From the IMG/VR virus record IMGVR_UViG_3300030102_006903, positions 49,374 through 113,373 of that record: DNA of 64,000 nucleotides. One strand, written 5' to 3'. The translations under genes were made by a program, and so were the position numbers. The notes beneath the pieces are model-generated. The model was not told the origin of the DNA, did not search any database, and saw only the letters and a program-made list of their open reading frames with translations. Shown here one piece after another: positions 7,280 through 45,152 of this stretch (positions are counted from its first letter, which is position 1; each line of letters starts with the position of its first letter). The stretch comes from a virus.

Positions 7280-7310
7280 CAAAGATACGAAATTTTTTTT
7301 TAATATCCAA
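7280..7310 (-). promoter_or_regulatory. Host-type promoter for the gp44/thioredoxin operon
   Basis: TTGG, 19-nt spacer, CG-TATCTTTG on the coding strand (TAnnTTTG exact). It overlaps the 3' end of the kinase gene at 7300. The ATG is 24 nt downstream. Confidence 0.7.
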
Positions 7311-7839
7311 GTAATTTTAATATTTTTTTTACTGATTTTGGTCCTACTTTTATTGTATGATATGGAAATCCATTATCATCTAAAACTTGTTTACACAATT
7401 TATCAATTGCTACTGCTTGTTCGTAATCTTGAAATCTTTCTTTATTATTGTGAACAGTATCACCTCTTTCTAAAAGGATATTAATATTATCATATTGATT
7501 GTGTAAATCAATTACCAAATTGTGAAAAGGTTCTCTGTAAAAACTTGCAGGATAACCTTTTGTGTAATATCTGTGATAAATAGTAGAGAAAAGGATTGGT
7601 GAATCGATGATTATATAATCAACTTTACCATAACATTCTGCAATTCCTCTATGTTGATTTGCAAAAACATATAACTGGTCTGATATTGCTGGTATGTTTT
7701 TATCCCATGCTAATCTTTTTGGAAATTCGTATGGGTTATTACAACTTATATGTTGTTTTTTTAATTTATAAGTAACCCCATTTGCAATTGAGGATTTACC
7801 TATACCTGCTCCACCGAATAAATTAATCAGTTTGCTCAT
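7300..7839 (-). CDS. P-loop ATPase / nucleoside-kinase-like protein
   Basis: The 179-aa protein starts at once with a P-loop (NLFGGAGIGKSS) and has a Walker-B-like strand ending in Asp-Ser (YIIIDSPIL). It also has an Arg-rich lid region (LLERGDTVHNNKERFQDYE). This resembles AAA_28/thymidylate-kinase-type phage proteins that phosphorylate nucleosides, nucleotides or small metabolites. A role in making nucleotide precursors would fit a phage with its own ribonucleotide reductase. The start overlaps the end of the GT2 gene by 17 nt. The substrate is not determined. Confidence 0.7.
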   Translation of the reverse strand: MSKLINLFGGAGIGKSSIANGVTYKLKKQHISCNNPYEFPKRLAWDKNIPAISDQLYVFANQHRGIAECYGKVDYIIIDSPILFSTIYHRYYTKGYPASFYREPFHNLVIDLHNQYDNINILLERGDTVHNNKERFQDYEQAVAIDKLCKQVLDDNGFPYHTIKVGPKSVKKILKLLGY

Positions 7840-8554
7840 ACTCTCTCCAATATCCTAAATCTTTTTTAAACCATTTTATATTTTTGTAATTGAAATAATT
7901 GAATAAATTTATTTTTAAAAAATTTAAATATCCAAATTTCAAAAATCTTCTATTATCTTGTCCAATATATTCATTGAGTATTTTGAACCTTGATTTTGGT
8001 ACCTCTTTCGATAACCAAAAATCTTCTGAATTTTGTAAAGTTTCATCGAACCCACCGAGTTCATTAAATTTCTTTTTAGAAATTAAAAAGAAACAACCTG
8101 TACAAAATGTGATTGGCATTATATTTCTCATCCAATCTAATATCTTATAAGTCCAAATAGATTTTTTATCATGAGTAGTTAATGATTTTTGTTTTACTGA
8201 AATGATATCGTATCTATTTAAATTTTTATGTGCTTCATTTAAAACATTTCTACCTATAAGAACAGAATCAGCATCCATGAATAAAATGTAATCTGTTGAT
8301 ACAAATGTAGCACCATTATTTCTTGCAAAACCTACTTTACCACCTTGAACCACCTCTATTTGTAGATTAGAGAAATCCTCAGAGGCTTTTGATATATACT
8401 CAAGTGTTTTATCAGTAGAGTTATTATCTGCAATTACAACTCGTAATACACCTTGGAAGTTTTGTCTTGATATTTTCCAAAGAGTATTGTAGATGTAGTT
8501 TTCCTCGTTATAACAAGGAATTATTATTGTTAATAAATCAGTTATTGTTTTCAT
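7823..8554 (-). CDS. Family 2 (GT-A) glycosyltransferase
   Basis: A GT2 N-terminus is clear: LTIIIPCYNEENYIYNTL, then ADNNSTDKT, and the DXD-like metal site in FMDADSV. A C-terminal half with SEDFWLSKEV matches the acceptor-side (ED) motif. I chose the ATG at 8554 (243 aa); the longer start at 8587 would place 11 codons inside the terminator of the TonB-receptor gene. Inverting GT2 enzymes use nucleotide sugars; the acceptor here could be DNA, virion proteins or the host envelope. Confidence 0.85.
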   Translation of the reverse strand: MKTITDLLTIIIPCYNEENYIYNTLWKISRQNFQGVLRVVIADNNSTDKTLEYISKASEDFSNLQIEVVQGGKVGFARNNGATFVSTDYILFMDADSVLIGRNVLNEAHKNLNRYDIISVKQKSLTTHDKKSIWTYKILDWMRNIMPITFCTGCFFLISKKKFNELGGFDETLQNSEDFWLSKEVPKSRFKILNEYIGQDNRRFLKFGYLNFLKINLFNYFNYKNIKWFKKDLGYWREYEQTD

Positions 8555-8555
8555 G

Positions 8556-8590
8556 TGAAAAGAAAGTGGGGGAGTTTCCTCCCCCAATAT
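8556..8590 (-). terminator. Rho-independent terminator after the TonB-dependent receptor gene
   Basis: On the coding strand GGGGGAG-GAAA-CTCCCCC (7-bp G/C stem, GNRA-type tetraloop) is followed by ACTTTCTTTT. It begins about 20 nt after the receptor stop and ends just before the GT2 start. It is the most GC-rich hairpin seen in the window. Confidence 0.85.
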
Positions 8591-8605: not shown

Positions 8606-11314
8606 TTAGAATCTGTATTTGAATGAAGCATTCCATGTACGTCCGAATCCGAACCATACTGAATTTCTTGTATCAATACCATTCCATGTTTCTGAAGCTG
8701 CTCCAGCATGGATGTTTGAGTTAGATTCTGCAATGTAGTAAGTATCAAGTAAGTTGTTGATATTTACTCTGAATGAAGCATCATTTCCGAATAAGTTGAA
8801 TCTAAAGGTTGAACCTAAATCAACTAATCCATAAGATGGTAACTTCAATGCACCCGCATTGTCAGGTGCTGTAAATTCTGAATCAGTAATTGAGTAATCT
8901 GCGTAAAGATTATCTACAAATCTATATCCTAAATCTACATTTAACTTGTTTCCAAGTTTATAATCTGCTTCTAAGTAAGAAACGAATTGAGCTGCATCAC
9001 CAACTTTAGCATCTTTTAAGTACAATGTACCTGTTCCGATTTGTTGGTTTTCATCATCAAATAACGCTGCTTCAAAATCTTTAGTATATCTCCAATCACC
9101 GATTGATAACATACCTTTTAATCTTAGTTTAGAATTATAATCATAAGTTGCCTCAACTTCTATACCGTTGTGAACTACATCGATATCCTTGAATTGTGCG
9201 AATCCATCAACACCTTGTTGGTTTGATAAACTTCTTGTAACAAATCTGTTACCCCATACTGTTGAGTATGCGTTTACATTTGCTCTGAAGTTATTTCCAA
9301 TGAATCCATATCCTAATTCAACCGATTTAATTTCCTCATTTTGTAAATCAGGATTAACAGTATTAGCATAGTTAGGGAATACACCATCAAAGTTTGGTTG
9401 TCTTGAGATGAAACCAGCATTGAAGAATACATTATTCTTTTCATCAATGTTATAGTTTGCACCACCTTTTAGATAACCACCACCAACATTCTTAGTATCA
9501 GATATTGGATTACCTGGTTGTCCAAAGTAATCAATTCTTTGGAAAGATTGATTTGATAAACCAGCTTGTAATACAGCAGATAAAGTAGAGTTGTTATATT
9601 CAACTAAACCATTTAAACCTTGCCAACCAACTTTACCAATATTATAGTAAGCGATTTTAGGGCCTCTGATACCTGTATCTTTGAATGGATTTGCTTCAAC
9701 TAATGTATTAATTATTTGTCCTGCAGAGTTATCATTACCAGTTGAGTAATAACCATCTAATCCCATTAGGTGGTTTAATGCTCTATAATGATATCCTTTG
9801 TAGTTTCTTAAATCAATACCGATTGAAGTTTTCCAATTCCCTTTCTCATATTCTAAGTTAGAGATTGCTCCAACCCAGTCATGAGAGTTCATAGAAGCTC
9901 TTCTAATAAGTGCACTTCTGTTAACACCATCAGCATTGAATCCATTTGAACCAATCAATTGACCTGTAAATGGTAAATCACCACTATATGGGTCTGTGTT
10001 TGCTTGGTTATATGCAACTACTGCATCAAAATCAATAAATCCTTCTGGTGTTCTTGAACCTCTACCATTTTCTAAGTAGTGTTCAGTAAGGTCTTTTCTA
10101 AATGGTAAGATATCAGTTTCCGAGTTGTAATAACTTTTACCTCTTGGACCTGTTCCTCCACCTCTACCAGCTGAACCATATAATGATGTAGCTAATTTAA
10201 GGTTAGAATTAATATCCCAATCCCAATTCAGAGTTGCTAATGGTTTGTTGTAGAAGTTTCTTCTCATTGAGAATTCTTCTCCATTTAAAACACCACCATT
10301 TGTATTCCATCTTCTATCAATTCCTTCTGTACCAAAGTTTTGGTAGTCTCTAATAGAAACCCAAACATCTCTTTGGTGGTGCCATTGACCAGCACCTAAG
10401 AAAGAAAAGTTAACTGAGTGCTTAGAATCTTCAGGTGCATATCCTAATGCAAAGAAGTAAGTATAACCCTCACCACTTGTATTATAGATATATCCATCAC
10501 CTTGCCATCTACTTAATAAGAAAGATGAAGCCCAACCATTGTCATTAAGACCTGTTGAGTGAGAAACAGTAGTTTTGAAATACCCATCATTACCAAATGT
10601 TTGAGCAATTGAACTACCACTTCTTGCTTCAGCTGCCTTAGTAAAGATTGATACAGTTCCACCTACTGATGGTACTGCTAATCTTGAAGCACCTAAACCT
10701 CTCTGTAATTGGATTCCACTTGCAACATCAGTAAGACCTTGCCAGTTAGACCAATAAACCCATCCATTTTCCATATCGTTAACTGGTTGCCCATTGATAA
10801 GGAAAGATGTATTTCTTTGGTCGAATCCTCTTAAAGAGATTCTCGAATCACCATATCCACCACCTTGTTTGGTTGCGTAGACACCTGGTGTTCTGTTCAT
10901 TATCTCAGGAAACTCTTGGTTACCTACTTTGAGTGCGATTTCTGATGGTGAAATAGTTGAAACTGCTACAGGTGTTTCTCTCACCTTTGCAATATCAATT
11001 ACACCAGAACTTACAACAACCTCACCAAGTACATTCAAGTCAGGTGTTAAACCTACTTTCGTGTTACCACTTGATTCAATTACTGTGGTTTCGTACCCTA
11101 AGTAAGAAACAACAAGTGTTGTTCCCTCAGATACATCAAGAATAAATGTCCCATCAAAACCTGATATTGTACCATCTTGAGTTCCCTCAATGATGATAGT
11201 AGCACCTGGTAAAGGGTCATTTGTCTCGACATCATAAACTAATCCACTTATTTGGGAAAAGCTTGCTGTTATACTTCCAAATAGGAATAACAGACTTAAC
11301 ATTAAATTTCTCAT
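8606..11314 (-). CDS. TonB-dependent outer-membrane receptor with carboxypeptidase-regulatory-like domain
   Basis: This 902-aa protein has a Sec signal peptide (about residues 1-21, ending SFSQ). Next comes a carboxypeptidase-regulatory-like beta-sandwich (about 22-95, ISGLVYDVETNDPLPGA). The plug domain follows (about 110-235, NRTPGVYATKQGG, ISLRGFDQRN, FLINGQPVNDM, VPSVGGTVSI). A long beta-barrel ends in an aromatic C-terminus (SFKYRF), as outer-membrane barrels do. It appears intact. Such receptors import siderophores, vitamins or glycans using TonB-ExbBD energy. Finding one in a phage replication region is unusual. Single sequence lines here run at roughly 35-42% GC, against 23-27% in the polymerase gene. 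It has its own terminator; upstream lie palindromes but no clear host-type promoter. Transfer from a flavobacterial host is likely. Confidence 0.95.
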   Translation of the reverse strand: MRNLMLSLLFLFGSITASFSQISGLVYDVETNDPLPGATIIIEGTQDGTISGFDGTFILDVSEGTTLVVSYLGYETTVIESSGNTKVGLTPDLNVLGEVVVSSGVIDIAKVRETPVAVSTISPSEIALKVGNQEFPEIMNRTPGVYATKQGGGYGDSRISLRGFDQRNTSFLINGQPVNDMENGWVYWSNWQGLTDVASGIQLQRGLGASRLAVPSVGGTVSIFTKAAEARSGSSIAQTFGNDGYFKTTVSHSTGLNDNGWASSFLLSRWQGDGYIYNTSGEGYTYFFALGYAPEDSKHSVNFSFLGAGQWHHQRDVWVSIRDYQNFGTEGIDRRWNTNGGVLNGEEFSMRRNFYNKPLATLNWDWDINSNLKLATSLYGSAGRGGGTGPRGKSYYNSETDILPFRKDLTEHYLENGRGSRTPEGFIDFDAVVAYNQANTDPYSGDLPFTGQLIGSNGFNADGVNRSALIRRASMNSHDWVGAISNLEYEKGNWKTSIGIDLRNYKGYHYRALNHLMGLDGYYSTGNDNSAGQIINTLVEANPFKDTGIRGPKIAYYNIGKVGWQGLNGLVEYNNSTLSAVLQAGLSNQSFQRIDYFGQPGNPISDTKNVGGGYLKGGANYNIDEKNNVFFNAGFISRQPNFDGVFPNYANTVNPDLQNEEIKSVELGYGFIGNNFRANVNAYSTVWGNRFVTRSLSNQQGVDGFAQFKDIDVVHNGIEVEATYDYNSKLRLKGMLSIGDWRYTKDFEAALFDDENQQIGTGTLYLKDAKVGDAAQFVSYLEADYKLGNKLNVDLGYRFVDNLYADYSITDSEFTAPDNAGALKLPSYGLVDLGSTFRFNLFGNDASFRVNINNLLDTYYIAESNSNIHAGAASETWNGIDTRNSVWFGFGRTWNASFKYRF

Positions 11315-11321
11315 AAATTAA

Positions 11322-11382
11322 ATTAATTTAAATTAATAATACTATAACTGATTATAGTAACGCTTGAGATACTTGCATACCT
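11322..11382 (-). promoter_or_regulatory. Palindrome-rich leader of the TonB-receptor gene
   Basis: Three inverted repeats occupy the leader. They are a 16-bp AT palindrome (11322-11337), an 8-bp stem with tetraloop reading TACTATAA-TCAG-TTATAGTA on the coding strand (11340-11359), and GAGGTA-TGCAAG-TATCTC with one wobble (about 11365-11382). No TAnnTTTG box with a -33 partner is seen; a TATAAT hexamer lies within the second repeat. Operator or promoter function is inferred. Confidence 0.4.
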
Positions 11383-11401
11383 CAATATCTTCAATATTTT
11401 T

Positions 11402-11524
11402 CTAATTGGGTTTTTCATTAAAATCTTGGGAATAAAAAGTAATCCTATCAGCAGTGACTGATGGTTCTTCGAAATACGGACTTTTGAAATAACTTGCAAA
11501 ATTTATAATATAAGTTTCACTCAT
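11402..11524 (-). CDS. Small ORF between methyltransferase and TonB receptor (40 aa)
   Basis: ATG at 11524 lies 14 nt after the methyltransferase stop. The frame encodes MSETYIINFASYFKSP and so on, rich in aromatic and acidic residues, and ends in TAG. After the TAG the same frame stays open for another 19 codons (KNIEDIEVCKYLKRYYNQL) before a second TAG. That extension looks protein-like, so the gene may have been shortened by a recent nonsense change. TAG is used as an ordinary stop by other genes here (for example 20088 and 50958), so recoding is unlikely. Function unknown. Confidence 0.4.
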   Translation of the reverse strand: MSETYIINFASYFKSPYFEEPSVTADRITFYSQDFNEKPN

Positions 11525-11538
11525 CTTTGTATAAGTAT

Positions 11539-13173
11539 TTAAGGTTTATAAAAAACGAAGATTGGTTCAAATTTATACACTTTCCCGTCATGTTTGACCG
11601 AGTTCTTTATACCACTTTTAGATGGGTCTAACCCAACCATCCTTGTCATCAACATTTTTAACTTACCTTTATATTCACATCCTAACTCATTTAAGATATC
11701 AATTGAATCTTGTTCAAGTGGATAATAGATTGATTTACCTATCTTGATATCAGCAATATTCCATAAAATATACCTATCATTCTTTAGATACTCATAAATC
11801 GTTGTTAGAGTAGGTTTTAAGAAGTTATCTCTCCAATCTTCATATTCACCATATGCTTTAAAAGATTGGTTCTCATCTTGAGAGTATTGTTCTCTGTTAA
11901 AATATGGAGGTGAAGTAAATGCAATATCTAACTTACCTTTATATTTTTGAAATTTTGGATTATTTGAGATTACCTCAGAACCATCTTGAAATAATTCGTA
12001 AGTGTTTCCTTGTTTTTCAACATTAAAAAATGATGTAAGTTTATCTGAGAAATCATCTACACAATTATCATTATAAAACTTAGCAACATATTCGTAACGA
12101 GAAATACCTAATTCATCTAAGAAGTTATCTGGATTAGGGTCTGTACCAACATAGTGAACTTTCTTACGAGAACTCATCGCACCGATGATTCTACCACCCC
12201 AACCACTTGATGAATCGTAAATATGTAATGGTTCATCTGTATCGATGTGGTTAGTATAATTTTCGTAAATCCACTTTGCAGTTAGTGCAGGAAAGTTTAC
12301 TGCAGGTTGTCCACAACTCAATCTAAATACTTGTAATATCTTTGGGAAGATACCAACTGTCTTATCATACCATCTTATTAGGTATTTGTATTTAGTGACT
12401 GTTCCTGCCTCTGAAGTTGTTGAATCAACTATTTCACCAAGATTTGATGTTTGAGTACTATTAAGATAACCAGTCGCAAGTAAACCATTTACTTCTTCTG
12501 AATTTAAATATAAGTTACCAAATCCAACATATTGTTCATTGAATGTTCCATAGTTTTTAAGAGTAGATTCTTTTACTCTCGCTAAAACAATTCCTAAATC
12601 AGAATATTTTCCTTTAAACACTTTACCATCATGAACATCTTTTATAAACTGAACCCCATCTTGTCCATTCCAAAAAGGATTCTCATCTTTTTTATCTACA
12701 AGTGAACGAGACCAAGAATACATAGAATCTCTTTTAACTGCTCGTTTCATAATATTAACGAACTTATCTTCCATACTTGTATCGGAAAAATGGTCATAAA
12801 TAGATAAACCATTATCAGCAGATTTACCAACTGATATTTTTGTTTTTAACATTGTAGGAAAAAACTGATTTACAACTGATGCATCTTTATTAAAGTTTTG
12901 TATTACTCCTAAAGATTCTTCATCACCACTTGTATCTTTTTTCCAATACTTTGCTGGATTAGATTTAAGTTTCTTGAATGATTTTATAATACCCTTTTCA
13001 TTCTTACCAATAACTGGTGGAGTTCCTCTATCATCCCATTGTTCAGTAACCTCCTTACGAAGCAAACGAGCCCATTGAACGAACTCATCATCAGTCATTT
13101 CTAACAACTGATGATAAGTCGTATTGGATTTAAACTCAGAAAATCTGCTTTTTTCGTAAAAGTGTTTACTCAT
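11539..13173 (-). CDS. SPPY-type DNA methyltransferase-like protein (544 aa)
   Basis: The C-terminal half is a class I SAM methyltransferase. Its motif-I-like glycine loop is DSSSGWGG (residues 320-327), with an acidic residue after the next strand (YVGTD). The catalytic motif IV TSPPYF lies at 420-425. SPPY is typical of N4-cytosine and some N6-adenine DNA methyltransferases. The first 300 residues match nothing I recognise and may be a recognition or partner domain. A paralogue (16489) shares GWG-R, TSPPYFN and the closing EPIFVF/EPIWIF block. It lies directly downstream of the clamp gene, which overlaps it by 1 nt at base 13173. It may methylate phage DNA for restriction evasion, or act in a base-modification pathway. 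Confidence 0.8.
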   Translation of the reverse strand: MSKHFYEKSRFSEFKSNTTYHQLLEMTDDEFVQWARLLRKEVTEQWDDRGTPPVIGKNEKGIIKSFKKLKSNPAKYWKKDTSGDEESLGVIQNFNKDASVVNQFFPTMLKTKISVGKSADNGLSIYDHFSDTSMEDKFVNIMKRAVKRDSMYSWSRSLVDKKDENPFWNGQDGVQFIKDVHDGKVFKGKYSDLGIVLARVKESTLKNYGTFNEQYVGFGNLYLNSEEVNGLLATGYLNSTQTSNLGEIVDSTTSEAGTVTKYKYLIRWYDKTVGIFPKILQVFRLSCGQPAVNFPALTAKWIYENYTNHIDTDEPLHIYDSSSGWGGRIIGAMSSRKKVHYVGTDPNPDNFLDELGISRYEYVAKFYNDNCVDDFSDKLTSFFNVEKQGNTYELFQDGSEVISNNPKFQKYKGKLDIAFTSPPYFNREQYSQDENQSFKAYGEYEDWRDNFLKPTLTTIYEYLKNDRYILWNIADIKIGKSIYYPLEQDSIDILNELGCEYKGKLKMLMTRMVGLDPSKSGIKNSVKHDGKVYKFEPIFVFYKP

Positions 13174-17739: not shown

Positions 17740-18584
17740 TATTTTAAGTTTAATGATTTTCTATATGAACCACCAATATTCCAAAATAGAATCTTACCAT
17801 CTAAGTTCTGAATATTATTTTCTAACCACCACCACATTTTTCTTTCCCAAAACTCATTCATATCAAATGGATATTCGGTAACACCATCCATAAAATCATC
17901 GAATGCGTATTCTGATTTATAAATGTTAATATTATTTAAATCACCTGCCTTATTTTGATTTAAAATCTTTTTAGTAGATTCTATTGCTGACATTGTTACT
18001 GTGTGTACTTTTCTTCTATTGTTAAGTAAATCTTTCCAATCTTTATATTGAAGAAATTCTCTAATCAAACCAGATGCTGTTACACCACTTCCAATCGATA
18101 CAACGAGATGGTCAAAATCTTGTTCTTCCAAAACTTCTTTCATTCTATCTTGCATGTAAGAAACATACGAAGGATGATTGAAAGCATACGGTAATTGTTG
18201 CCAACCTTCCTTTTTTGCGATACCACCAAGTTTATTCTCAAGTAATTTCATCATATTTGGTTTCAATGGATTTAGTGTTGCACCATTTCCTTTAATGATT
18301 TCTAATATTTCTGGTGGATATGATTTTGAATTAGGGTAAGATGATATAAACTCAATACCATATTCCTTACACATCTTTGACAATGTCCAACCAGTCCAAC
18401 TTCCATATACTGAAAGATGGGTTAGTGGTTTTGATTTATCAATGTAATCAGATTCTATAATCTTTCTAATACCTTCAATCTTAGCCCATCGTGGATAGTT
18501 TACACCATCCCCAACTAAATCATCTCTTTTGACATGAACTACTTTACCTTTTAATTTATATTCTTCGATTGGTGTTTGTATCAT
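17739..18584 (-). CDS. PLP-dependent enzyme-like protein, fold type II (ACC deaminase/D-cysteine desulfhydrase-like)
   Basis: The 281-aa protein opens with TPIEEY and VHVKRDDLVGDG, as in ACC deaminase and D-cysteine desulfhydrase. It has a phosphate-binding glycine run (VSIGSGVTASGL). In that family a lysine follows Asn in GGNK; here the segment reads GVNYPRWAKIEG, so the Schiff-base lysine is missing or shifted to the Lys of WAKIEG. Length is shorter than the usual 330 aa. Its ATG overlaps the AsnB stop as ATGA. It may catalyse an amino-acid transformation feeding the neighbouring enzymes, or have a changed chemistry. Confidence 0.65.
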   Translation of the reverse strand: MIQTPIEEYKLKGKVVHVKRDDLVGDGVNYPRWAKIEGIRKIIESDYIDKSKPLTHLSVYGSWTGWTLSKMCKEYGIEFISSYPNSKSYPPEILEIIKGNGATLNPLKPNMMKLLENKLGGIAKKEGWQQLPYAFNHPSYVSYMQDRMKEVLEEQDFDHLVVSIGSGVTASGLIREFLQYKDWKDLLNNRRKVHTVTMSAIESTKKILNQNKAGDLNNINIYKSEYAFDDFMDGVTEYPFDMNEFWERKMWWWLENNIQNLDGKILFWNIGGSYRKSLNLK

Positions 18585-20086
18585 ATAAATTTGTATATTC
18601 CAACATTGTTATTCTTAACTCTTTCTCTTAATTTCTTATGTGAAAATCCATGTATCTTTTCAAAGTTATCACAAATAACATGAAACAATTTTTTTCTGTT
18701 TTTAAAGTTTATATTTGAATCTTCTAAAATAATAGTTTCTATGTACTCTTTAAAATTTGTACCTTTTTGAAAAGCCCTTTTTTCTTGGTCTAATATTTCA
18801 TCAGGTAATTTACCTCTAAATGCATCTGCAAGTGGTCTTTTCCATTGTCCTTTATCTGATAAAAATTCATCTTGTAAATTTGTTGTATAATTTAAAAACT
18901 CTGTATCAAAGAATGGACATCTAAGTTCGATAGTTCCATAATTCATAAAAATTGTATTACCTCTTAACAAATTACCATAATGTTGTTTCTCAAATAAATT
19001 CTTTCTAACATCACTCCAATCTGGCTTTTTACTAAACATTCTAAATGTACCATATGAACCATACGATTCATCAGAACCCTCACCACTAAATGCAACTTTG
19101 ATTCCATCCTTTACCATCTCTTCTGCAATAAACGATTGTAATATACCAACTTCCATTTGAACTGTTGATGGGTATTCTATTACACTTATAGAATCAATGA
19201 ATCTTTGTTTGATTATCTTTTCATCTCTTGGTACAAATACCTCAATAAGTTCAACTCCAATTGAATCTGCACAAACTCTTGCTTTTTGTAAATCTTTTGA
19301 ATCTTGGTCAAAAGCAATTGTATATGCTTTGATATCTGGTATTCTTTGTGCAAGTAAATATGTAATGATTGCTGAATCTATTCCACCACTTAATGAAGTT
19401 GCAATAGGTACATCAGATAATAATCTTTTATCAACTGCATTTTCTAATAGTTTAAATGTAGTTTTACCAACCTCTTCATGTGATTTTGGTTTAGTTACCT
19501 CATCTGAAAATTGGAAATAAAAGTTTTCGTGTATTTTAAAATCATCTGTATCTAAATCGATTTCTATAAGAGTATTTTTAGGTACAATTTGAATATCATT
19601 TATTCCTTCTTGAGTTAAAATTGATTTTATCTCAGATGCAATGATATATTGATTGGTATTATGGATGTAGAGGGGTATTTTACCCACCCAGTCACGAGAT
19701 AATATGATTTTGTTCGTATCATATATAACAAAAGAAAACATCCCATCTAACCTCTCTAATTCGTTTTCTTTGTAAAGATATAAAATTATCTCTGAATCTG
19801 AATTAGATTTGAATTTATATCCTCTCTGTTCGTATTCTTTACGCAATTGTGGATAATTCCAAATCTCACCATTTACAATTAAATGAGTATCTTCAAATTC
19901 CATCGGTTGATTACCTAATGGAGATATATCATTTATTGATAAACGATTATGACCAAGATGAATTGTTTTATCTTTGTATAAAAATTCTTTTATACCACGA
20001 TTATCTTTTCCACGATGAGAAATCTCTTCTAACATCGTATCTACATCACTATGTTTATAACCAATCGTTGCTACGATTCCACACAT
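18581..20086 (-). CDS. Asparagine-synthetase-B-like glutamine amidotransferase
   Basis: The class II amidotransferase N-terminus is intact: Cys2 nucleophile (MCGIVAT), SHRGKDNRG and VNGEIWN. It is followed by the synthetase domain with the PP-loop SLSGGIDSA (residues 231-239) and FSGEGSDE. At 501 aa it is near the length of bacterial AsnB. These enzymes hydrolyse glutamine and use ATP to amidate a carboxylate, usually aspartate. The setting between a TS-like gene (1-nt gap) and a PLP-fold gene (4-nt overlap) suggests a specialised substrate, possibly in modified-nucleotide synthesis. Plain asparagine supply during infection is the alternative. Confidence 0.85.
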   Translation of the reverse strand: MCGIVATIGYKHSDVDTMLEEISHRGKDNRGIKEFLYKDKTIHLGHNRLSINDISPLGNQPMEFEDTHLIVNGEIWNYPQLRKEYEQRGYKFKSNSDSEIILYLYKENELERLDGMFSFVIYDTNKIILSRDWVGKIPLYIHNTNQYIIASEIKSILTQEGINDIQIVPKNTLIEIDLDTDDFKIHENFYFQFSDEVTKPKSHEEVGKTTFKLLENAVDKRLLSDVPIATSLSGGIDSAIITYLLAQRIPDIKAYTIAFDQDSKDLQKARVCADSIGVELIEVFVPRDEKIIKQRFIDSISVIEYPSTVQMEVGILQSFIAEEMVKDGIKVAFSGEGSDESYGSYGTFRMFSKKPDWSDVRKNLFEKQHYGNLLRGNTIFMNYGTIELRCPFFDTEFLNYTTNLQDEFLSDKGQWKRPLADAFRGKLPDEILDQEKRAFQKGTNFKEYIETIILEDSNINFKNRKKLFHVICDNFEKIHGFSHKKLRERVKNNNVGIYKFI

Positions 20087-21498: not shown

Positions 21499-23280
21499 TT
21501 AACCATCACACGCAACACAATCTGGGTCTACTGCTCTAGTTGCAATATCTCCTCTAAGAACTGATTCAGTTCTCATATAATATAGAGTTTTAATTCCTTG
21601 TTTCCAAGCCTCTAATGTAACTTGATTTATCCACTTCGGTGTTGCAATCGAAGGGAAAGCTAAATTTAATGAAACTCCTTGGTCAATATACTGTTGTCTA
21701 ACACCAGCCTGTTTTACCAAGTCCATTTGATTAATTTCTTTGAATGTTCTAAAAACATCTTTTACAGGATAAACTTTTTCTCTTTCTCCATTAGTAATTT
21801 CTTCACAAAGTACCATTTTACCTTCTAAGTAACACCACTTATCAAGTTCTTTGATATCTTGTACTGAACCACCATCTTCCAAAATTTTATCCCAAGTTTC
21901 TTTATTATTAACACCTGCTTTTCTTAATACCTTTACTAACTCACCATTTTTTCTGATGAATGTACCTTTTGAAGTTTGTTCAGTAAATACATTCGCTGCC
22001 CATGGTTCGATACCAGCAGATACATTTCCAGCTAATTTAGAATTACTTACTGTTGGAGCAACTGCTCTTAAGTGAGTATTTCTAAATCCACTTTCTCTAC
22101 ACCATAGAGGTTCACCCATTTCAGATGCCATATCTCTTGATGCTCTTTCTGATTCTATCTTTAACTGAGAAAAAATCTTACGAGTTTCAAATTGTGCCTC
22201 CATACCTTCAAATGGAATACCATTTTGTTGTAGGTAAGTGTGCCATCCTAAAACTCCTAATCCTAATGCTCTACCTTTTTCAGCAGATGCAACAGAGTTT
22301 TCAAATCCTCTCATGTTTTTTGCTTTTTGAATAAACTCTGAAAGAACACCATCTAAAAACCAAGTTGCTGTATAAACTAAATCAGTATCTCTCCACTCAT
22401 TGTATTTAGCAAGATTTACTGATGATAAACAACAAACAAAGGAATGGTTTTCATCTGTGTGTAAAGTAATTTCAGAACATATGTTTGTCATATGTACTTT
22501 CAATCCATTTTTTTTGTACATCTCAGGATTAGATTTATTAATATTTCCTTTGTACATGATGTATGGTTCACCAGTTGCTTTTCTTTTTTGTAGTAATTTT
22601 CCCCACCTTCTTCGTGCATCAGGTTCTCCTTGTTCAAGTTTTCTCATAAACTTATCACCTACAACTGCACATTGGTGTAGATTAAGTGATTGTCTATTTA
22701 CATCTCCTTTAGGTTCTCTGATTTCTAACCAATCTTCAAAATCTTCATGTTCGATATTAAGGTTAACAGATGCTGCTCCTCTTCTTACTGAACCTTGGTT
22801 TGTAGCAAGGATTGTAGAATCATATATTTTACAGAATGGTACAACACCATCAGATGTTCCATTACCTGTAATGGTAGCACCAGCAGGTCTTATTTGGTTT
22901 ACACCAATACCAACTCCACCACCATGTTTAGCAAGTAACATTAGTTCTAAGTTTTTAGAACCAATATCGTATATTGAATCGGCAACATCAATACCAAAAC
23001 AAGATATAGGTAATCCTCTATCAGTGCCAGTATTTGAAAGAACTGGTGTTGCTAAGTTTAACCAACCTTTCCATATATAATCAAAAAACTTAGTTGCCAG
23101 TTGAGGTTTGTTTAATCTTTGAGCAACTCTTGTTGCAACTCTCCAATAAGCATCTTTTGGTTTTTCACCTGGTAATAGGTATCCTTTAGATATTGTTTTT
23201 ACATAAATTTCTGTATTTCCCCAAGAAGGAAAATCAACATCGATTTCCCAACCTAATTCTTCGCCGTAGTTTTTTGCCAT
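21499..23280 (-). CDS. nrdA: Class I ribonucleotide reductase large subunit
   Basis: The 593-aa protein has the catalytic barrel of NrdA. It has the first redox Cys in PISCFG, the NICSE loop with active-site Cys and Glu, and a second redox Cys region (FVCCLSSVNL). It also has the radical-transfer tyrosines (YYMRTES) and the C-terminal thioredoxin-reducible pair CVACDG. It lacks an N-terminal ATP-cone, so it is shorter than E. coli NrdA (about 760 aa) and may not be shut off by dATP. It reduces NDPs to dNDPs for phage DNA synthesis. Its start overlaps the stop of the methyltransferase-dioxygenase fusion by 1 nt. Confidence 0.95.
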   Translation of the reverse strand: MAKNYGEELGWEIDVDFPSWGNTEIYVKTISKGYLLPGEKPKDAYWRVATRVAQRLNKPQLATKFFDYIWKGWLNLATPVLSNTGTDRGLPISCFGIDVADSIYDIGSKNLELMLLAKHGGGVGIGVNQIRPAGATITGNGTSDGVVPFCKIYDSTILATNQGSVRRGAASVNLNIEHEDFEDWLEIREPKGDVNRQSLNLHQCAVVGDKFMRKLEQGEPDARRRWGKLLQKRKATGEPYIMYKGNINKSNPEMYKKNGLKVHMTNICSEITLHTDENHSFVCCLSSVNLAKYNEWRDTDLVYTATWFLDGVLSEFIQKAKNMRGFENSVASAEKGRALGLGVLGWHTYLQQNGIPFEGMEAQFETRKIFSQLKIESERASRDMASEMGEPLWCRESGFRNTHLRAVAPTVSNSKLAGNVSAGIEPWAANVFTEQTSKGTFIRKNGELVKVLRKAGVNNKETWDKILEDGGSVQDIKELDKWCYLEGKMVLCEEITNGEREKVYPVKDVFRTFKEINQMDLVKQAGVRQQYIDQGVSLNLAFPSIATPKWINQVTLEAWKQGIKTLYYMRTESVLRGDIATRAVDPDCVACDG

Positions 23281-24401: not shown

Positions 24402-25397
24402 TTAAAATAAATCGTCCCAATCCTCACCTTCATTTGCTTTAGAATAATCGGTTGGTCTAATAGCGAAGAAATCGGTGTGAGTGTGTCCACCAGTTAAATG
24501 ATAGAACCATTCTAAGTTTTCTGCCTTCTTTTTATCGAATTCAAAAATTGGTTCGTATCCTAATTCTTTTAATTTTGTGTTTGTTCTATCTTTGATAAAT
24601 TCTTTTAAATCTTCTTTTTTAAGATTTTCTAAATCACCTAGTTCAAACATTTTATCAATAAATTTAGATTCTAATTCTACAATAAGTTTTGCAGCCTTTT
24701 GAATTGATTCTTTACATTCATCTAATAACTCAGGATATTCATCACACATATGTCTGAATAATTGACAACCCATTCTTGAATGTAGAGATTCATCTCTTAC
24801 ACTCCACTTCATTTGTTGTCCAATACCTTTTAGTAAGTTTCTCATTTGAAATGAGTAAAGTACCGCAAAAGAAGAATATAAACTAACTCCCTCTGCGAAT
24901 GCTGAAAAGATTGCTAAACTTCTACCAACCTCTTGTCTTGCTTTTGGATTTGTTGCCAAATCTTCATGTTTCCATTCAGCGGTAGTTGAGGTTAGGAGTT
25001 CAAACTTCTCTGCTACTGCAGGTTCATGCAAGAATGCCGAGAAGTCCTCTAATCCTAATGTTTCATTTAGATACGAATAAGCTGTAGCGTGAATTGTTTC
25101 TTGTGAACCAAACATCATTGCCATTTGTCTGATTTCATGTTTTGGAAACCAATCAGTAACCATGTTAGTCCAATAATCAGAAACTGCACATTCGGTTTGA
25201 GCAAATCCAAGTAGAATGTTCCCAACCAAATTCTTTTCTTCAGGTGTTAACTTTTCGTTCCAATCTTTAACATCCATTTGCATGGGTATTTCTGTGTGTA
25301 ACCAAAATGCTTGTGCCTGTTTTAACCAACCTTCTGTATAATAGATTGGATATTCGAATGGTTTAAATGGGATTCTTTCTTGGAATAATTTGCTCAT
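24402..25397 (-). CDS. nrdB: Class I ribonucleotide reductase small subunit
   Basis: This 331-aa protein has the diiron ligands of NrdB in order: Glu69 (QTEC), Glu100 and His103 (SQETIHATAY), Glu169 (FAEG), Glu203 and His206 (RDESLH). Tyr107, four residues after His103, is at the place of the stable tyrosyl radical, so it is probably a standard diferric-tyrosyl enzyme. It ends in EDWDDLF, like the NrdA-binding tail of NrdB proteins. It pairs with NrdA (21499) and heads a run of co-translated genes. Confidence 0.95.
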   Translation of the reverse strand: MSKLFQERIPFKPFEYPIYYTEGWLKQAQAFWLHTEIPMQMDVKDWNEKLTPEEKNLVGNILLGFAQTECAVSDYWTNMVTDWFPKHEIRQMAMMFGSQETIHATAYSYLNETLGLEDFSAFLHEPAVAEKFELLTSTTAEWKHEDLATNPKARQEVGRSLAIFSAFAEGVSLYSSFAVLYSFQMRNLLKGIGQQMKWSVRDESLHSRMGCQLFRHMCDEYPELLDECKESIQKAAKLIVELESKFIDKMFELGDLENLKKEDLKEFIKDRTNTKLKELGYEPIFEFDKKKAENLEWFYHLTGGHTHTDFFAIRPTDYSKANEGEDWDDLF

Positions 25398-29587: not shown

Positions 29588-30406
29588 TTAATTGTTAAAC
29601 AAGTCATCGAATGCAGCTGCAACATCATCAGTTTTCTTTGAATCTGATTTTGTTTCTACTGAACCACCATCATTAGATGTAGTAGTTTTAGTTTCAGTTA
29701 CAGGTTTAGTTGAAAGAGATTCTTGTGAAACTGATTCATCTTTACCTTCTGCAGTTGGATTCAACCATCCTTCTAATACTGATTTTAATTCATCATAAGA
29801 TAATTCAGAATATAAATCTGTAATTTCAGTTTGTGATTCAATAAATGAAGTTGCCTTATCTGTATCCTCACTCAATGGTGTTTCGCTTGGTTTAACTCTA
29901 ATAGTAGTAGTTGGATAAGTGGTACCAGCCTGTTCTGCTGATTTATATTCGATTGTTAAATCTCTACCACTTGTAGGGTCAGTAATATCACCATAATCTG
30001 GGTCTGCAATATAACCAAGAATCTCTTGATATACAGTTTTACCAAATCCCCAAAATCTTACTCCTTCACCTTCTTCACCTCTTACAATAACAGGTACGAA
30101 AGTTCTTAACTTTGGTTCCATAGCTTTTGCAGCTTTCCAATCATCTTTATCACCCATTCTTTTTAGTTTATCCGCAAACTCTACAATAGGGTCTGGTCTA
30201 CCAAATGATTGTGGTGATAAATAAGTTTTGTTGTTAATGTTGTAGTGAAAATAAAGTTCAATGAAAGGATTATCTCTGTTGAACTTATAGGGAACTATTC
30301 TTACAGTATGTTTCCCTGGTGTTGGTTTCCACAAAGCATCTGTTTTTCTTTGTGTGTTTTGTAGTTTGTTCAGTCTACTTCTGATTGCATTAATGTCTAG
30401 TGCCAT
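29588..30406 (-). CDS. 32: Single-stranded DNA-binding protein, T4 gp32-like
   Basis: The 272-aa protein has the basic N-terminal cooperativity region (RSRLNKLQNTQRKT), an OB-fold core (TVRIVPYKFNRDNPFIELYFHY). It ends in a Ser/Thr/Asp-rich acidic tail finishing AAFDDLF. T4 gp32 binds zinc through His and three Cys; here the core has no cysteines, so it is a zinc-free version. It coats single-stranded DNA and recruits replication partners through the tail. It has a strong Shine-Dalgarno (AAAGGAG) and a long leader with a hairpin and a TATTTATA element. Confidence 0.88.
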   Translation of the reverse strand: MALDINAIRSRLNKLQNTQRKTDALWKPTPGKHTVRIVPYKFNRDNPFIELYFHYNINNKTYLSPQSFGRPDPIVEFADKLKRMGDKDDWKAAKAMEPKLRTFVPVIVRGEEGEGVRFWGFGKTVYQEILGYIADPDYGDITDPTSGRDLTIEYKSAEQAGTTYPTTTIRVKPSETPLSEDTDKATSFIESQTEITDLYSELSYDELKSVLEGWLNPTAEGKDESVSQESLSTKPVTETKTTTSNDGGSVETKSDSKKTDDVAAAFDDLFNN

Positions 30407-30454
30407 AATTACTCCTTTTAAATGTTATTAAATTAAATTTTAAGTTTAAGTTTT

Positions 30455-30492
30455 GAGTGTCAAACTTACAACACTCGGTGTATATATAAATA
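30455..30492 (-). promoter_or_regulatory. gp32 leader: TATTTATA element and 5' hairpin
   Basis: On the coding strand TATTTATA (30492-30485) is followed by GAGTGT-10 nt-ACACTC (30476-30455), which would be near the 5' end of the transcript. T4 gene 32 mRNA has a leader pseudoknot used for autoregulation; a similar role here is inferred from position only. Confidence 0.5.
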
Positions 30493-37731: not shown

Positions 37732-38343
37732 TTAGTTAGTACAATCTACCTCATATTCTTCCCAACCTTGTGTCGGTTTTTCATTAGGGAAAACAAACTT
37801 TCTACAAGTTCCATCTTCTTCAAAGTAAATTGTTTTACTCATATGAGTTGGAATATGACCACCACTTGGTAGAATTTCATACCCATCTTCCCATATTAGT
37901 TCAACTGTGATTGTAAGGTTTTGTTCATCATCCCAAACTCTTTCTTGTTCTTCTAATAATCTCCACTCACCTCTATTTAGGTTTTGTTCTTGTAGAGCAC
38001 AATTTAAAAACGAAAAGGTTTGTTTTAGATTCACCATAGAATCAGAATATGTTGCAGCTGGTGCAAGATGTCCTTTATCCCAAATGTTTTGATAATAATC
38101 AGCATTATCAGATGTATGATAATCTGGTTCAGTATAAAAATTCATATTTCCTCTATCAACATTCTTAGGTCTATCTGTTGAGGTATAAACTAATTTTACT
38201 GGTTGTTCTTTTACTTCATTGTACCAAACTTTAAAAACTTGGTTCTCTACTATCACTTCCTGTCTTAATTCTTGAGCGATGATTTGTTCTGCCTCACATC
38301 CACTTAACAATAGAGCGAGTAGTAATATTTTAAATAATTTCAT
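37732..38343 (-). CDS. Lipoprotein DNA/RNA non-specific endonuclease (NUC1-like)
   Basis: The ATG at 38343 gives MKLFKILLLALLLSGC, a lipoprotein signal with a lipobox (LLSGC), and follows a Shine-Dalgarno (AAGGA). The longer frame to 38502 would overlap the polymerase gene. The mature part has the ColE7/NUC1-type catalytic segment DKGHLAPAATYS (family DRGHxxPA). It also has a downstream Asn region (NCALQEQNLNRGEW), as in Serratia-type DNA/RNA nucleases. It ends in a Cys-containing tail. It would be an envelope-anchored, periplasmic or surface nuclease, possibly destroying incoming DNA from competing phages. Confidence 0.85.
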   Translation of the reverse strand: MKLFKILLLALLLSGCEAEQIIAQELRQEVIVENQVFKVWYNEVKEQPVKLVYTSTDRPKNVDRGNMNFYTEPDYHTSDNADYYQNIWDKGHLAPAATYSDSMVNLKQTFSFLNCALQEQNLNRGEWRLLEEQERVWDDEQNLTITVELIWEDGYEILPSGGHIPTHMSKTIYFEEDGTCRKFVFPNEKPTQGWEEYEVDCTN

Positions 38344-38369
38344 AATTTTCCTTAATTTTTTTATGTATA

Positions 38370-38377
38370 TATAAATA
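38370..38377 (-). promoter_or_regulatory. TATTTATA candidate late promoter for the lipoprotein nuclease
   Basis: TATTTATA on the coding strand about 27 nt before the ATG at 38343; it lies between the polymerase stop and the signal-peptide start, supporting the short start. Confidence 0.5.
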
Positions 38378-39637
38378 TTAAACTTTGGAGTAATCGGAAC
38401 CCCAATCTGCTTTGACGGGAAAACCAAAACTTTCGAGAACGGTCTTAACCTTTTTAATAGTATCAACCTCAGAATCATCAAACTCGAAAAGGAATGAATC
38501 ATATGTGTATAAAATAGGTAGGGGTAGGTCGTTTTCTTTTAACTTTTTTATCGCCTCGATATTGAACTCGGTTTCGGTTGCTTGTAGTAAATAATTAAAT
38601 AATTTTTGTGCATTTGGTTGTTCAATCCAATCCAATGGGATGGTTCTTCCTTTTGGAGTTTCTATATATCCATTTTGGAGTGCCTTATCATTTAAGGATT
38701 TTATGAACTTATCCACCTTATCAAAGAATGGTATCTTTCTATCATCATCGGATACTCCACCATACAAGATTCTAAAAGTTCTTCCTTTGGATTCATCATA
38801 ATCTACACCGTATTGGTCTGCTAACCATTGGTGAACCGATGTTTGGGGTAATTTATGTTTTATCAACTTTCCAATAATCCTTACATGATATGCATCGTAA
38901 TCAAATTGTAAGAAGAGTTTCCCTTTTTGTGGTACGAAGATTTCTCTACTACCATCTTTTTTATTCAATGCGGAGAAATTAATCCCTAAATGTCTATTGG
39001 ATGGTCTTGAAGTAATGGTATATGGGTTATATTCGGTGAATACTCGTGAAAACCAAAGTGATTTACGATTATCGGGCCATCTATCAAAAAATTTTTCCCT
39101 ATCGACTTGGAGGCCCTTTTGTTCGATTTCTGAGAGAATGGGTATCATTGTATTGTCAATCCAAGGTAAACAAGGTTCTAAGATACCAAAATCATCTCTA
39201 ACACCCTTAAGAACCTCTATAAACTTCATTATAGGGATTGATTTACCTAAATCATCTCTTATACCCAATCTATGATAAAAGTTCGTTAGAACCTCTATTT
39301 TCTCATAAAAAGGGTATAATTCATTCTTATTAAAGAATAAAGATGATTGTACATCTTTGAGATTGTTTATATTTAAGTTTGCTTGTAATAATCCTTTTTT
39401 ATTCCAACAAAACTTTATTTGATTCGAGGTTGATAAATCTATTTCTAATTTTTCACAATCATTGTGATTAAAAGGTAAGATAAAATCCTCTTCGGAAAAA
39501 GCAATATAAAGAAAGGACACATCTGTGGTAACAGAGTGTCTATCCAAATCTTCCCAAATTGGAATAATAGTAGATTGTTCATTATTCCAATATTTGAGAA
39601 ATTGTTCTTTCTCTTTATTGGTTTCTACTATAATCAT
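38378..39637 (-). CDS. Divergent family A DNA polymerase-like protein without obvious exonuclease site
   Basis: The 419-aa protein has family A palm and fingers motifs. A TSRPSNRH and NFSALNK block (about 208-226) corresponds to the TGRLSS/NLQN region. Motif A is FDYDAY (Asp246), motif B KGRTFRILYGG (284-294) and motif C YTYDSF (Asp380). Both catalytic aspartates are kept. The first 150 residues hold no DEDD exonuclease acids, so it probably lacks proofreading. It is about two-thirds the size of T7 polymerase and is additional to the family B enzyme. It may serve repair or translesion synthesis; the neighbouring Fpg-like glycosylase fits that. Its start overlaps the EF-hand ORF in an ATGA. 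Confidence 0.8.
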   Translation of the reverse strand: MIIVETNKEKEQFLKYWNNEQSTIIPIWEDLDRHSVTTDVSFLYIAFSEEDFILPFNHNDCEKLEIDLSTSNQIKFCWNKKGLLQANLNINNLKDVQSSLFFNKNELYPFYEKIEVLTNFYHRLGIRDDLGKSIPIMKFIEVLKGVRDDFGILEPCLPWIDNTMIPILSEIEQKGLQVDREKFFDRWPDNRKSLWFSRVFTEYNPYTITSRPSNRHLGINFSALNKKDGSREIFVPQKGKLFLQFDYDAYHVRIIGKLIKHKLPQTSVHQWLADQYGVDYDESKGRTFRILYGGVSDDDRKIPFFDKVDKFIKSLNDKALQNGYIETPKGRTIPLDWIEQPNAQKLFNYLLQATETEFNIEAIKKLKENDLPLPILYTYDSFLFEFDDSEVDTIKKVKTVLESFGFPVKADWGSDYSKV

Positions 39638-44396: not shown

Positions 44397-45152
44397 TTAA
44401 GAAATTTTAGCTGAACCTACATCGATTGGTTCTCTCTTCATATGATTTCCTTTAGCAAAGTTTGCTCCTTCTCTGATGTAACCAGTTAAGAATGCTCTTC
44501 TAAATCTTTTTGATGTATTTGGTTCAGAACCATGAACTACATTTGAATGAAGTAATGCAACTTGTCCTTTTCTTAGATATCCATCTATATGTGGAAAGTT
44601 GTGGTCCTTTGGTAGTACACAAGGTTTACCCCTTTCGTTTCTCCAATTTTTTGGATTTGAACCTGCCCTTTCTTCATCAACTTCAATTGGAAGTTTACCT
44701 AATCTATGTGAACCTTCTAAATACCATACTGAACCATTATTAGGGTCGTGATTATCAAATGCAATAGATACATTGATTATTTCGTTAGAATTACATTGTG
44801 TATAAAATATATTTTGATGCATATCTCTACCTAATTGACCTGGTGGTTTAAAGTATGCCCAAGTTTGAACTCCGAATATTTTTCCACCCATCAAAAATTC
44901 ACATGCTTCAATAACTTTTGGATGTTTCATTAAACCAGTAAGAACCTTAGATTCTTTATGTGGATACATATATGGGTCATAATCTCCCCATTCACCTTCT
45001 GTATCATTCTCTTGTCTTTTTACTCTGATTCGTTCTAATTCATCCGCACATGCATCTACTTCACTATCTGTAAGTAGATTTAAAATAGATACTCCTTTGT
45101 ATCTCCAATCAAATTGTAATTGTTGTTTTTCTAATTCTGTAAGATAACTCAT
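44397..45152 (-). CDS. PhyH-like 2OG-Fe(II) dioxygenase with altered metal triad
   Basis: The 251-aa protein follows phytanoyl-CoA/ectoine hydroxylase-type oxygenases: YFKPPGQLGRDMHQN, then NGSVWYLEGSHRLG and LLHSNVVHGSEPNTS with Arg after it (KRFRRAF). The distal His207 and the 2OG-binding Arg are present. The first metal motif is His112-Gln-Asn114 instead of HxD/E, so one acidic iron ligand is replaced by Asn. It may still bind iron through His/His/Asn or be changed in activity. No host-type promoter precedes it. Confidence 0.75.
   Translation of the reverse strand: MSYLTELEKQQLQFDWRYKGVSILNLLTDSEVDACADELERIRVKRQENDTEGEWGDYDPYMYPHKESKVLTGLMKHPKVIEACEFLMGGKIFGVQTWAYFKPPGQLGRDMHQNIFYTQCNSNEIINVSIAFDNHDPNNGSVWYLEGSHRLGKLPIEVDEERAGSNPKNWRNERGKPCVLPKDHNFPHIDGYLRKGQVALLHSNVVHGSEPNTSKRFRRAFLTGYIREGANFAKGNHMKREPIDVGSAKIS

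Follow-up and report, generated by a model that had tools for sequence, protein, structure and literature searches.

Why would a T4-like phage carry a complete gene for a receptor of the bacterial outer membrane, and what would the encoded protein do in the infected cell? The gene that raises this question lies in a 64,000-nucleotide stretch of viral DNA (the window), part of a 113,373-base IMG/VR virus record in which it occurs as a single copy.

An intact transporter gene in a T4-like phage

The gene encodes a TonB-dependent receptor (TBDR) with these parts:

8606..11314, minus strand: TBDR gene, intact ORF from ATG to stop, 902 aa
11255..11314, minus strand: predicted signal peptide, about residues 1-20 (MRNLMLSLLFLFGSITASFSQ), judged by eye
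11012..11251, minus strand: CarboxypepD_reg-like N-terminal domain, residues 22-101 (PF13715, E 2.8e-15)
11000..11029, minus strand: TonB box region, residues 96-105 (LGEVVVSSGV), conserved in phage and bacterial rows
10745..10984, minus strand: plug domain, residues 111-190 (PF07715, E 1.5e-12)
8609..10618, minus strand: beta-barrel, about residues 233-902 (PF00593; strand pattern of the AlphaFold2 model)

The two domains by which a TonB-dependent transporter (TBDT) is recognised, plug (PF07715) and barrel (PF00593), both score above cut-off, Pfam placing TonB_dep_Rec_b-barrel at residues 355-855, and sequence analysis confirms a real, intact TBDT gene. The TonB box reads LGEVVVSSG at residues 96-104, with LxEVVV(T/S)SG kept in phage and bacterial TBDRs, and residues 151-210 are the best-conserved stretch (0.97-0.98 in the phage alignment rows). 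The protein begins with MRNLMLSLLFLFGS, which by eye resembles a signal peptide, and ends in the aromatic C-terminus ...KYRF. An AlphaFold2 model (72 sequences; pLDDT 82.6, pTM 0.78) matches TBDTs in the PDB, PqqU/YncD and FhuA first (TMt 0.7-0.8) and FecA and OprC further on, all of them generic TBDTs; no nucleic-acid importer is found among these matches. The N-terminal extension and plug are shared with SusC/RagA TonB-linked proteins (TIGR04056), but the score of 79.9 bits in NCBIfam lies far under the cut-off of 368.25, and no SusD lipoprotein adjoins the gene in the window or appears among the annotated recurrent phage neighbours. Short-form TBDRs of about 836-850 aa that lack the CarboxypepD_reg-like domain occur in phages (L071, L074, L076-L079) and in bacteria (L088, L094, L097, L101), and the long form is likewise found in both.

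The gene is flanked as follows:

7823..8587, minus strand: GT2 glycosyltransferase (PF00535), probable true start at an ATG near 8554
8567..8586, minus strand: intrinsic terminator just downstream of the TBDR stop (TGGGGGAG-GAAA-CTCCCCCA and a T-rich tail)
11539-13173, minus strand: DNA-methyltransferase-like gene

The surroundings are those of a T4-like phage: the window encodes UvsX, a gp32-type single-strand DNA-binding protein (SSB), a DnaB-type helicase, clamp, clamp loader, family-B polymerase and tail sheath, and these genes, like those of ribonucleotide reductase (RNR), share the minus strand with the TBDR gene. An earlier note on this DNA had described a full-length receptor in such a phage, with signal peptide, regulatory domain, plug, barrel and aromatic C-terminus all intact, lying between GT2 and methyltransferase genes in the same direction, and this description holds throughout. 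So does its proposal of a strong terminator of the gene's own: the hairpin is GC-rich (MFE -21.1 kcal/mol, z = -4.84), and the TBDR gene is separately terminated. The note's argument from base composition fares less well. At 35.6% GC the TBDR gene is indeed above the mean of 50 genes (31.0 +/- 2.5%), but the polymerase gene has 29.7%, not the 23-27% given. Third-position GC (21.3 vs 17.8%, z = 0.7) and codon usage (10th of 33) are unremarkable, and the gene is thus compositionally adapted to the phage; a recent host origin on the grounds of GC was ruled out, whereas host origin as such is upheld by the phylogeny described below. The window also holds an asparagine synthase-like gene (18581-20086) and a phytanoyl-CoA dioxygenase-like gene (44397-45152).

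Distribution among phages

A scan of viral contigs returned 421 places that encode TBDR relatives, and the best 80 of these 421 were analysed. At least one further gene matches this phage in 77 of the best 80, mostly many genes and in a few cases only thioredoxin. Dozens of IMG/VR phage contigs of 4-276 kb carry the TBDR, with up to 89% identity, at sites of several kinds: between methyltransferase and clamp loader, or beside nrdA, radical-SAM genes or FolE/ThyX blocks. Many viral contigs are fragments. Because related phages do not count as independent cases, cluster counts at 80% identity are used. In a search of whole records, 6 of 30 from phages with a related polymerase contain the TBDR, one of them 276 kb in length, and it was not found in polymerase-related records of 213, 287 and 288 kb; this patchiness across the polymerase lineage points to an accessory gene, gained and lost. 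The best relative in INPHARED has 34% identity, so that collection holds no close one. The phage gene is under purifying selection judging from dN/dS, which is 0.14 between the window and its nearest relative (L050) and 0.04-0.27 for most pairs. Sampling started from the window TBDR and thus does not prove a preference over other TBDR families; a control scan with another flavobacterial TBDR gave zero viral matches, with patterns that were perhaps too strict.

Two observations concern individual loci. A MAG contig assigned to Crocinitomicaceae MED692 (L110) carries a TBDR near-identical to that of phages L078/L079 and is probably a misbinned phage contig. FolE-like and QueE-like genes, identified from sequence, flank the TBDR in L046, L051, L068 and L076 and suggest 7-deazaguanine DNA modification.

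Origin from a conserved Bacteroidota family

Comparison with bacteria finds the closest cellular kin in a conserved Bacteroidota TBDR that lies directly downstream of pgi (glucose-6-phosphate isomerase, identified from sequence) in 35 bacterial loci, flanked by pgi and an M23 peptidase gene. These homologues (e.g., L120, L121 and L085) share about 66-73% identity and the same domains with the phage protein, but are chromosomal, are preceded by a TTTTGC-type promoter rather than the phage leader, and usually have no adjoining nuclease gene. Neither pgi nor the M23 peptidase gene is present at any of the best 80 of 421 viral loci.

Phage TBDRs form several clades interspersed among bacterial ones, with the window TBDR inside an all-virus clade of 24 rows in the FastTree phylogeny. 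That tree needs 13 changes of label between virus and bacterium, 10 of them forced by strong branches; IQ-TREE needs 7, with 6 forced, and a single viral clade is rejected (p-AU 6.3e-5). The trees indicate that T4-like and other large Bacteroidota phages took up the gene several times from one conserved host family, and transfer in both directions is possible.

Exported nucleases and salvage enzymes beside the transporter

The following genes of the window bear on the function of the TBDR:

7300..7839, minus strand: AAA_28 P-loop gene, NadR/Ttd14-like and thymidylate-kinase-like in PHROG (PF13521, E 3.2e-11; phrog_2107)
21499-23280, minus strand: ribonucleotide reductase NrdA (PF02867)
24402-25397, minus strand: ribonucleotide reductase NrdB (PF00268)
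37732..38502, minus strand: DNA/RNA non-specific endonuclease with a lipoprotein-type signal, judged by eye (PF01223, E 1e-19; inner start MKLFKILLLALLLSGC)

We find that 14 of the best 80 of 421 loci have an S1/P1 nuclease gene immediately downstream of the TBDR, and another 5 of that set a DNA/RNA non-specific endonuclease gene immediately upstream. The distance from the TBDR is 73-1799 nt for all 19 nuclease genes; of the flank DNA, by contrast, just 28.6% lies within 2 kb. The 19 loci correspond to 8 TBDR clusters at 80% identity. The association also holds in reverse: starting from S1/P1, the TBDR is directly upstream in 10 of 13 phage loci, one of the others being cut by the contig end and two having no TBDR, while the AAA_28 P-loop gene follows S1/P1 in 13 of 13. 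The 827 kb that surround the DNA polymerase in the same phages contain a single non-specific endonuclease gene and no S1/P1 gene. Alignment of the S1/P1 protein to the solved nuclease 8qjl begins at residue 16, a Trp that is the mature N-terminus, which means that the protein has to be exported; this Trp has a Zn-related role in S1/P1 nucleases.

In the window itself no S1/P1 gene stands beside the TBDR, and the GT2 gene occupies the site where some relatives have it. The endonuclease of this phage, 27 kb from the TBDR, is of one family with the endonuclease that other phages encode directly upstream of their TBDR. The AAA_28 P-loop gene, which has no match in a PDB search, is two genes downstream of the TBDR here and its downstream neighbour in most relatives; in other phage lineages nrdA adjoins the TBDR, as do phosphoribosyltransferase, nucleoside phosphorylase and IMP dehydrogenase (IMPDH) genes. 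Genes of nucleotide metabolism are common in T4-like phages in any case, so that salvage neighbours weigh less than the nucleases.

The bacterial side offers one parallel. Two Ca. Arcticimaribacter genomes (L095 and L096) have the TBDR followed by an S1/P1 nuclease gene, the order seen in phages, and L096 continues with a NupC-type (Na+-dependent) nucleoside transporter and a non-specific endonuclease; these loci are bacterial, and the L096 TBDR is cut by the contig end. Other bacteria usually possess S1/P1, but away from the TBDR. The TBDR family is thereby genetically linked to exported nucleases and nucleoside transport, with the two non-adjacent in the phage of the window.

Further neighbours were recorded. 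The upstream flank of the TBDR in L004-L012 combines IMP dehydrogenase with GroES-like and GroEL-like genes in one phage region. Small membrane proteins of 74-81 aa are encoded beside the TBDR and S1/P1 genes in three phages (L003:12867-13112, L068:5277-5501 and L073:12556-12780); one matches Imp-YgjV, and they are a possible inner-membrane partner. Import of an NAD precursor through PnuC with a NadR kinase was considered for the NadR-like AAA_28 gene and a nearby small membrane protein, and was dropped, as the latter has no PnuC match and S1/P1 fits nucleic acids better.

A leader resembling that of the phage SSB gene

Upstream of the TBDR start, and of the SSB gene, lie these features:

11315..11415, minus strand: TBDR leader, two hairpins and then AU repeats right before the ATG (AU-repeat score 8)
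29588..30406, minus strand: gp32-type SSB (phrog_1192, E 4e-22), a candidate regulator
30407..30476, minus strand: SSB leader, H-type pseudoknot (30447-30476) and UUAAA repeats, from sequence and relatives

With an AU-repeat score of 8, TBDR and SSB tie for the top among minus-strand genes of the window. The mean score for UUAAA-type repeats in the 50 nt upstream is 4.95 for phage TBDRs and 6.68 for phage SSB genes, compared with 1.34 for 897 other phage genes and 1.95 for bacterial TBDRs; a score of 5 or more occurs in 63% of the TBDR and 84% of the SSB genes of phages, in 3% of the 897 others and in none of 22 bacterial TBDRs. A Bacteroidota-type promoter precedes most bacterial homologues and is absent before phage TBDRs. 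At the level of sequence, this comparison shows that phages swapped the host promoter for a leader with AU repeats such as their SSB gene typically has.

Two leader motifs precede 21 and 9 TBDRs, respectively, of the best 80 of 421 and none of 1265 other genes of the same loci, and a scan of all viral contigs with the leader patterns finds matches at TBDR leaders only. The leaders of seven distinct relatives fold into two hairpins, P1 and P2, and a third helix in which the P1 loop pairs with GGUUACU; paired changes occur in each helix. Located about 35-100 nt ahead of the TBDR start, a conserved pseudoknotted leader was seen in L002, L008, L013, L020, L021, L023, L024 and L270; there the P1 loop UAGUAAC/CAGUAAC pairs with GUUACUA/GUUACUG, an arrangement found only before phage TBDRs. 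As to the palindromic leader described in the earlier note, no such pseudoknot was found in the window and the two hairpins there do not by themselves clearly stand out from shuffles (z = -1.47), but relatives do have a structured leader. No known riboswitch is matched in Rfam.

The gp32 protein of T4 acts as a repressor of its own mRNA, by way of a pseudoknot and the UUAAA repeats that follow it (PMC535899). The SSB leader of the window and of L274-L353 shows, by eye, a comparable pseudoknot (GAGTGT..ACACTC, with loop TAAGTTT pairing with AAACTTA), and by analogy is likely an autogenous operator in Bacteroidota T4-like phages. Phage TBDR leaders resemble the T4 gene 32 operator in having UUAAA-type repeats before the start and, in relatives of the window's gene, a structured (pseudoknot) 5' part; the T4 operator precedes gp32 itself (PMC535899), whereas here a similar leader, a putative binding site, also precedes a transporter gene. 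An SSB operator common to TBDR and SSB genes is plausible on this analogy, the TBDR leader hinting at gp32-like control tied to replication. A strong translation-initiation leader is the simpler reading of the AU-rich sequence, and AU-rich leaders may be no more than a sign of strong translation starts in Bacteroidota.

Proposed function and alternatives

We lean towards the TBDR being a working importer, captured several times, that would bring nucleic-acid fragments or nucleosides into the cell for phage DNA synthesis. After infection, the phage protein would enter the outer membrane of the host and, powered by the host's TonB, take in nucleotides, nucleosides or pieces of nucleic acid. Nucleases of the periplasm or the cell surface would trim them (S1/P1 in relatives, the non-specific endonuclease in this phage), and salvage enzymes with the P-loop kinase and RNR would turn them into dNTPs. 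A more speculative step is that phage SSB would repress TBDR translation through the leader until single-stranded DNA titrates it, which would tie import to replication. The full scheme, a replication-coupled harvest of environmental DNA or RNA by importer and exported nucleases under an SSB-sensing leader switch, is one we put forward tentatively and consider rather unlikely as a whole. The substrate is inferred from gene context, and host S1/P1 genes usually lie elsewhere. Against nucleic-acid import stand also the position of most bacterial homologues by pgi rather than nucleases, the many phage TBDRs without an adjoining nuclease, the 27 kb that separate this phage's endonuclease from its TBDR, the generic TBDT fold matches, and the presence of the TBDR in no more than 6 of the 30 polymerase-related records.

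The strongest competitor, though an unlikely one, is a generic importer of iron chelates, a cofactor or another nutrient, with nuclease neighbours coincidental in regions rich in nucleotide genes. Its fold neighbours, transporters of siderophores, PQQ and copper, would fit this, as would bacterial homologues that mostly sit by pgi without a substrate clue, and RNR, adjacent to the TBDR in some lineages, requires metal. No siderophore, heme or metal gene, however, recurs beside phage TBDRs, while nucleases do so in 8 TBDR clusters and a bacterial genome.

Superinfection exclusion or receptor exchange, in which the phage TBDR would take the place of, mask or act as a decoy for the receptor that rival phages use, appears improbable. 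TBDTs are classic phage receptors, FhuA structures with T5 pb5 appear among the fold matches, and the protein is predicted to reside in the outer membrane; but an extra receptor copy alone does not keep phages out, and the known factor T5 Llp is a small receptor-binding lipoprotein (8a60 among the fold matches). The strong constraint on TonB box, plug and barrel, as kept for active import, and the recurrence of nucleases and salvage enzymes as partners, with no exclusion-type partner found, speak against the replacement or masking that the earlier note had entertained, to which nothing points; its other suggestion, that the gene feeds the infected cell, is plausible in light of the same partners. 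Overall, the interpretation in that note is partly supported.

Equally doubtful is the upkeep of an important host outer-membrane function during shut-off of host synthesis. Conservation of the bacterial family across Bacteroidota, often at a fixed position by pgi, and the replacement of the host promoter by the phage leader both fit this reading; outer-membrane proteins are, however, generally stable through an infection cycle, and the pairing with nucleases would go unexplained. A BAM-type role was also considered, and nothing in PMC12611786 links the TBDR to it. Assembly chimera or host contamination, which has only the host-likeness of the TBDR in its favour and was the worry raised at the outset, can be set aside with near certainty, as dozens of separate contigs, 4-276 kb in length, have the same gene among phage replication genes, behind a phage-specific leader and without pgi.

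Precedents and implications

Phage TBDRs were reported earlier in megaphages, in Mar_Mega_1 (PMC9723777), a single report without partners, leader or function. The only strong viral fold match to our model, annotated 'SusC' of an uncultured marine phage (BFVD A0A8D9FQQ5), is probably that protein; it is likewise a full-length TBDR encoded by an aquatic phage, but shares about 14% identity over the fold alignment and belongs to a different subfamily. A literature search with incomplete journal coverage found no published account of the present phage TBDR family, of its association with nucleases or of its leader. Phage TBDRs in general have precedents; the present family, together with the genes beside it and its leader, seems not to have been described before.

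The nucleotides of phages are thought to come mainly from breakdown of host DNA and from remodelled internal metabolism. If the favoured reading is true, phages that refit the outer membrane of their host to import building blocks would represent a new mode of the infected cell, and a testable answer to the DNA demand of large-genome phages in small marine bacteria. The association described here may also offer a substrate for a widespread Bacteroidota TBDR family, and the leader would be a possible case of SSB-type control over a gene other than that of the SSB.
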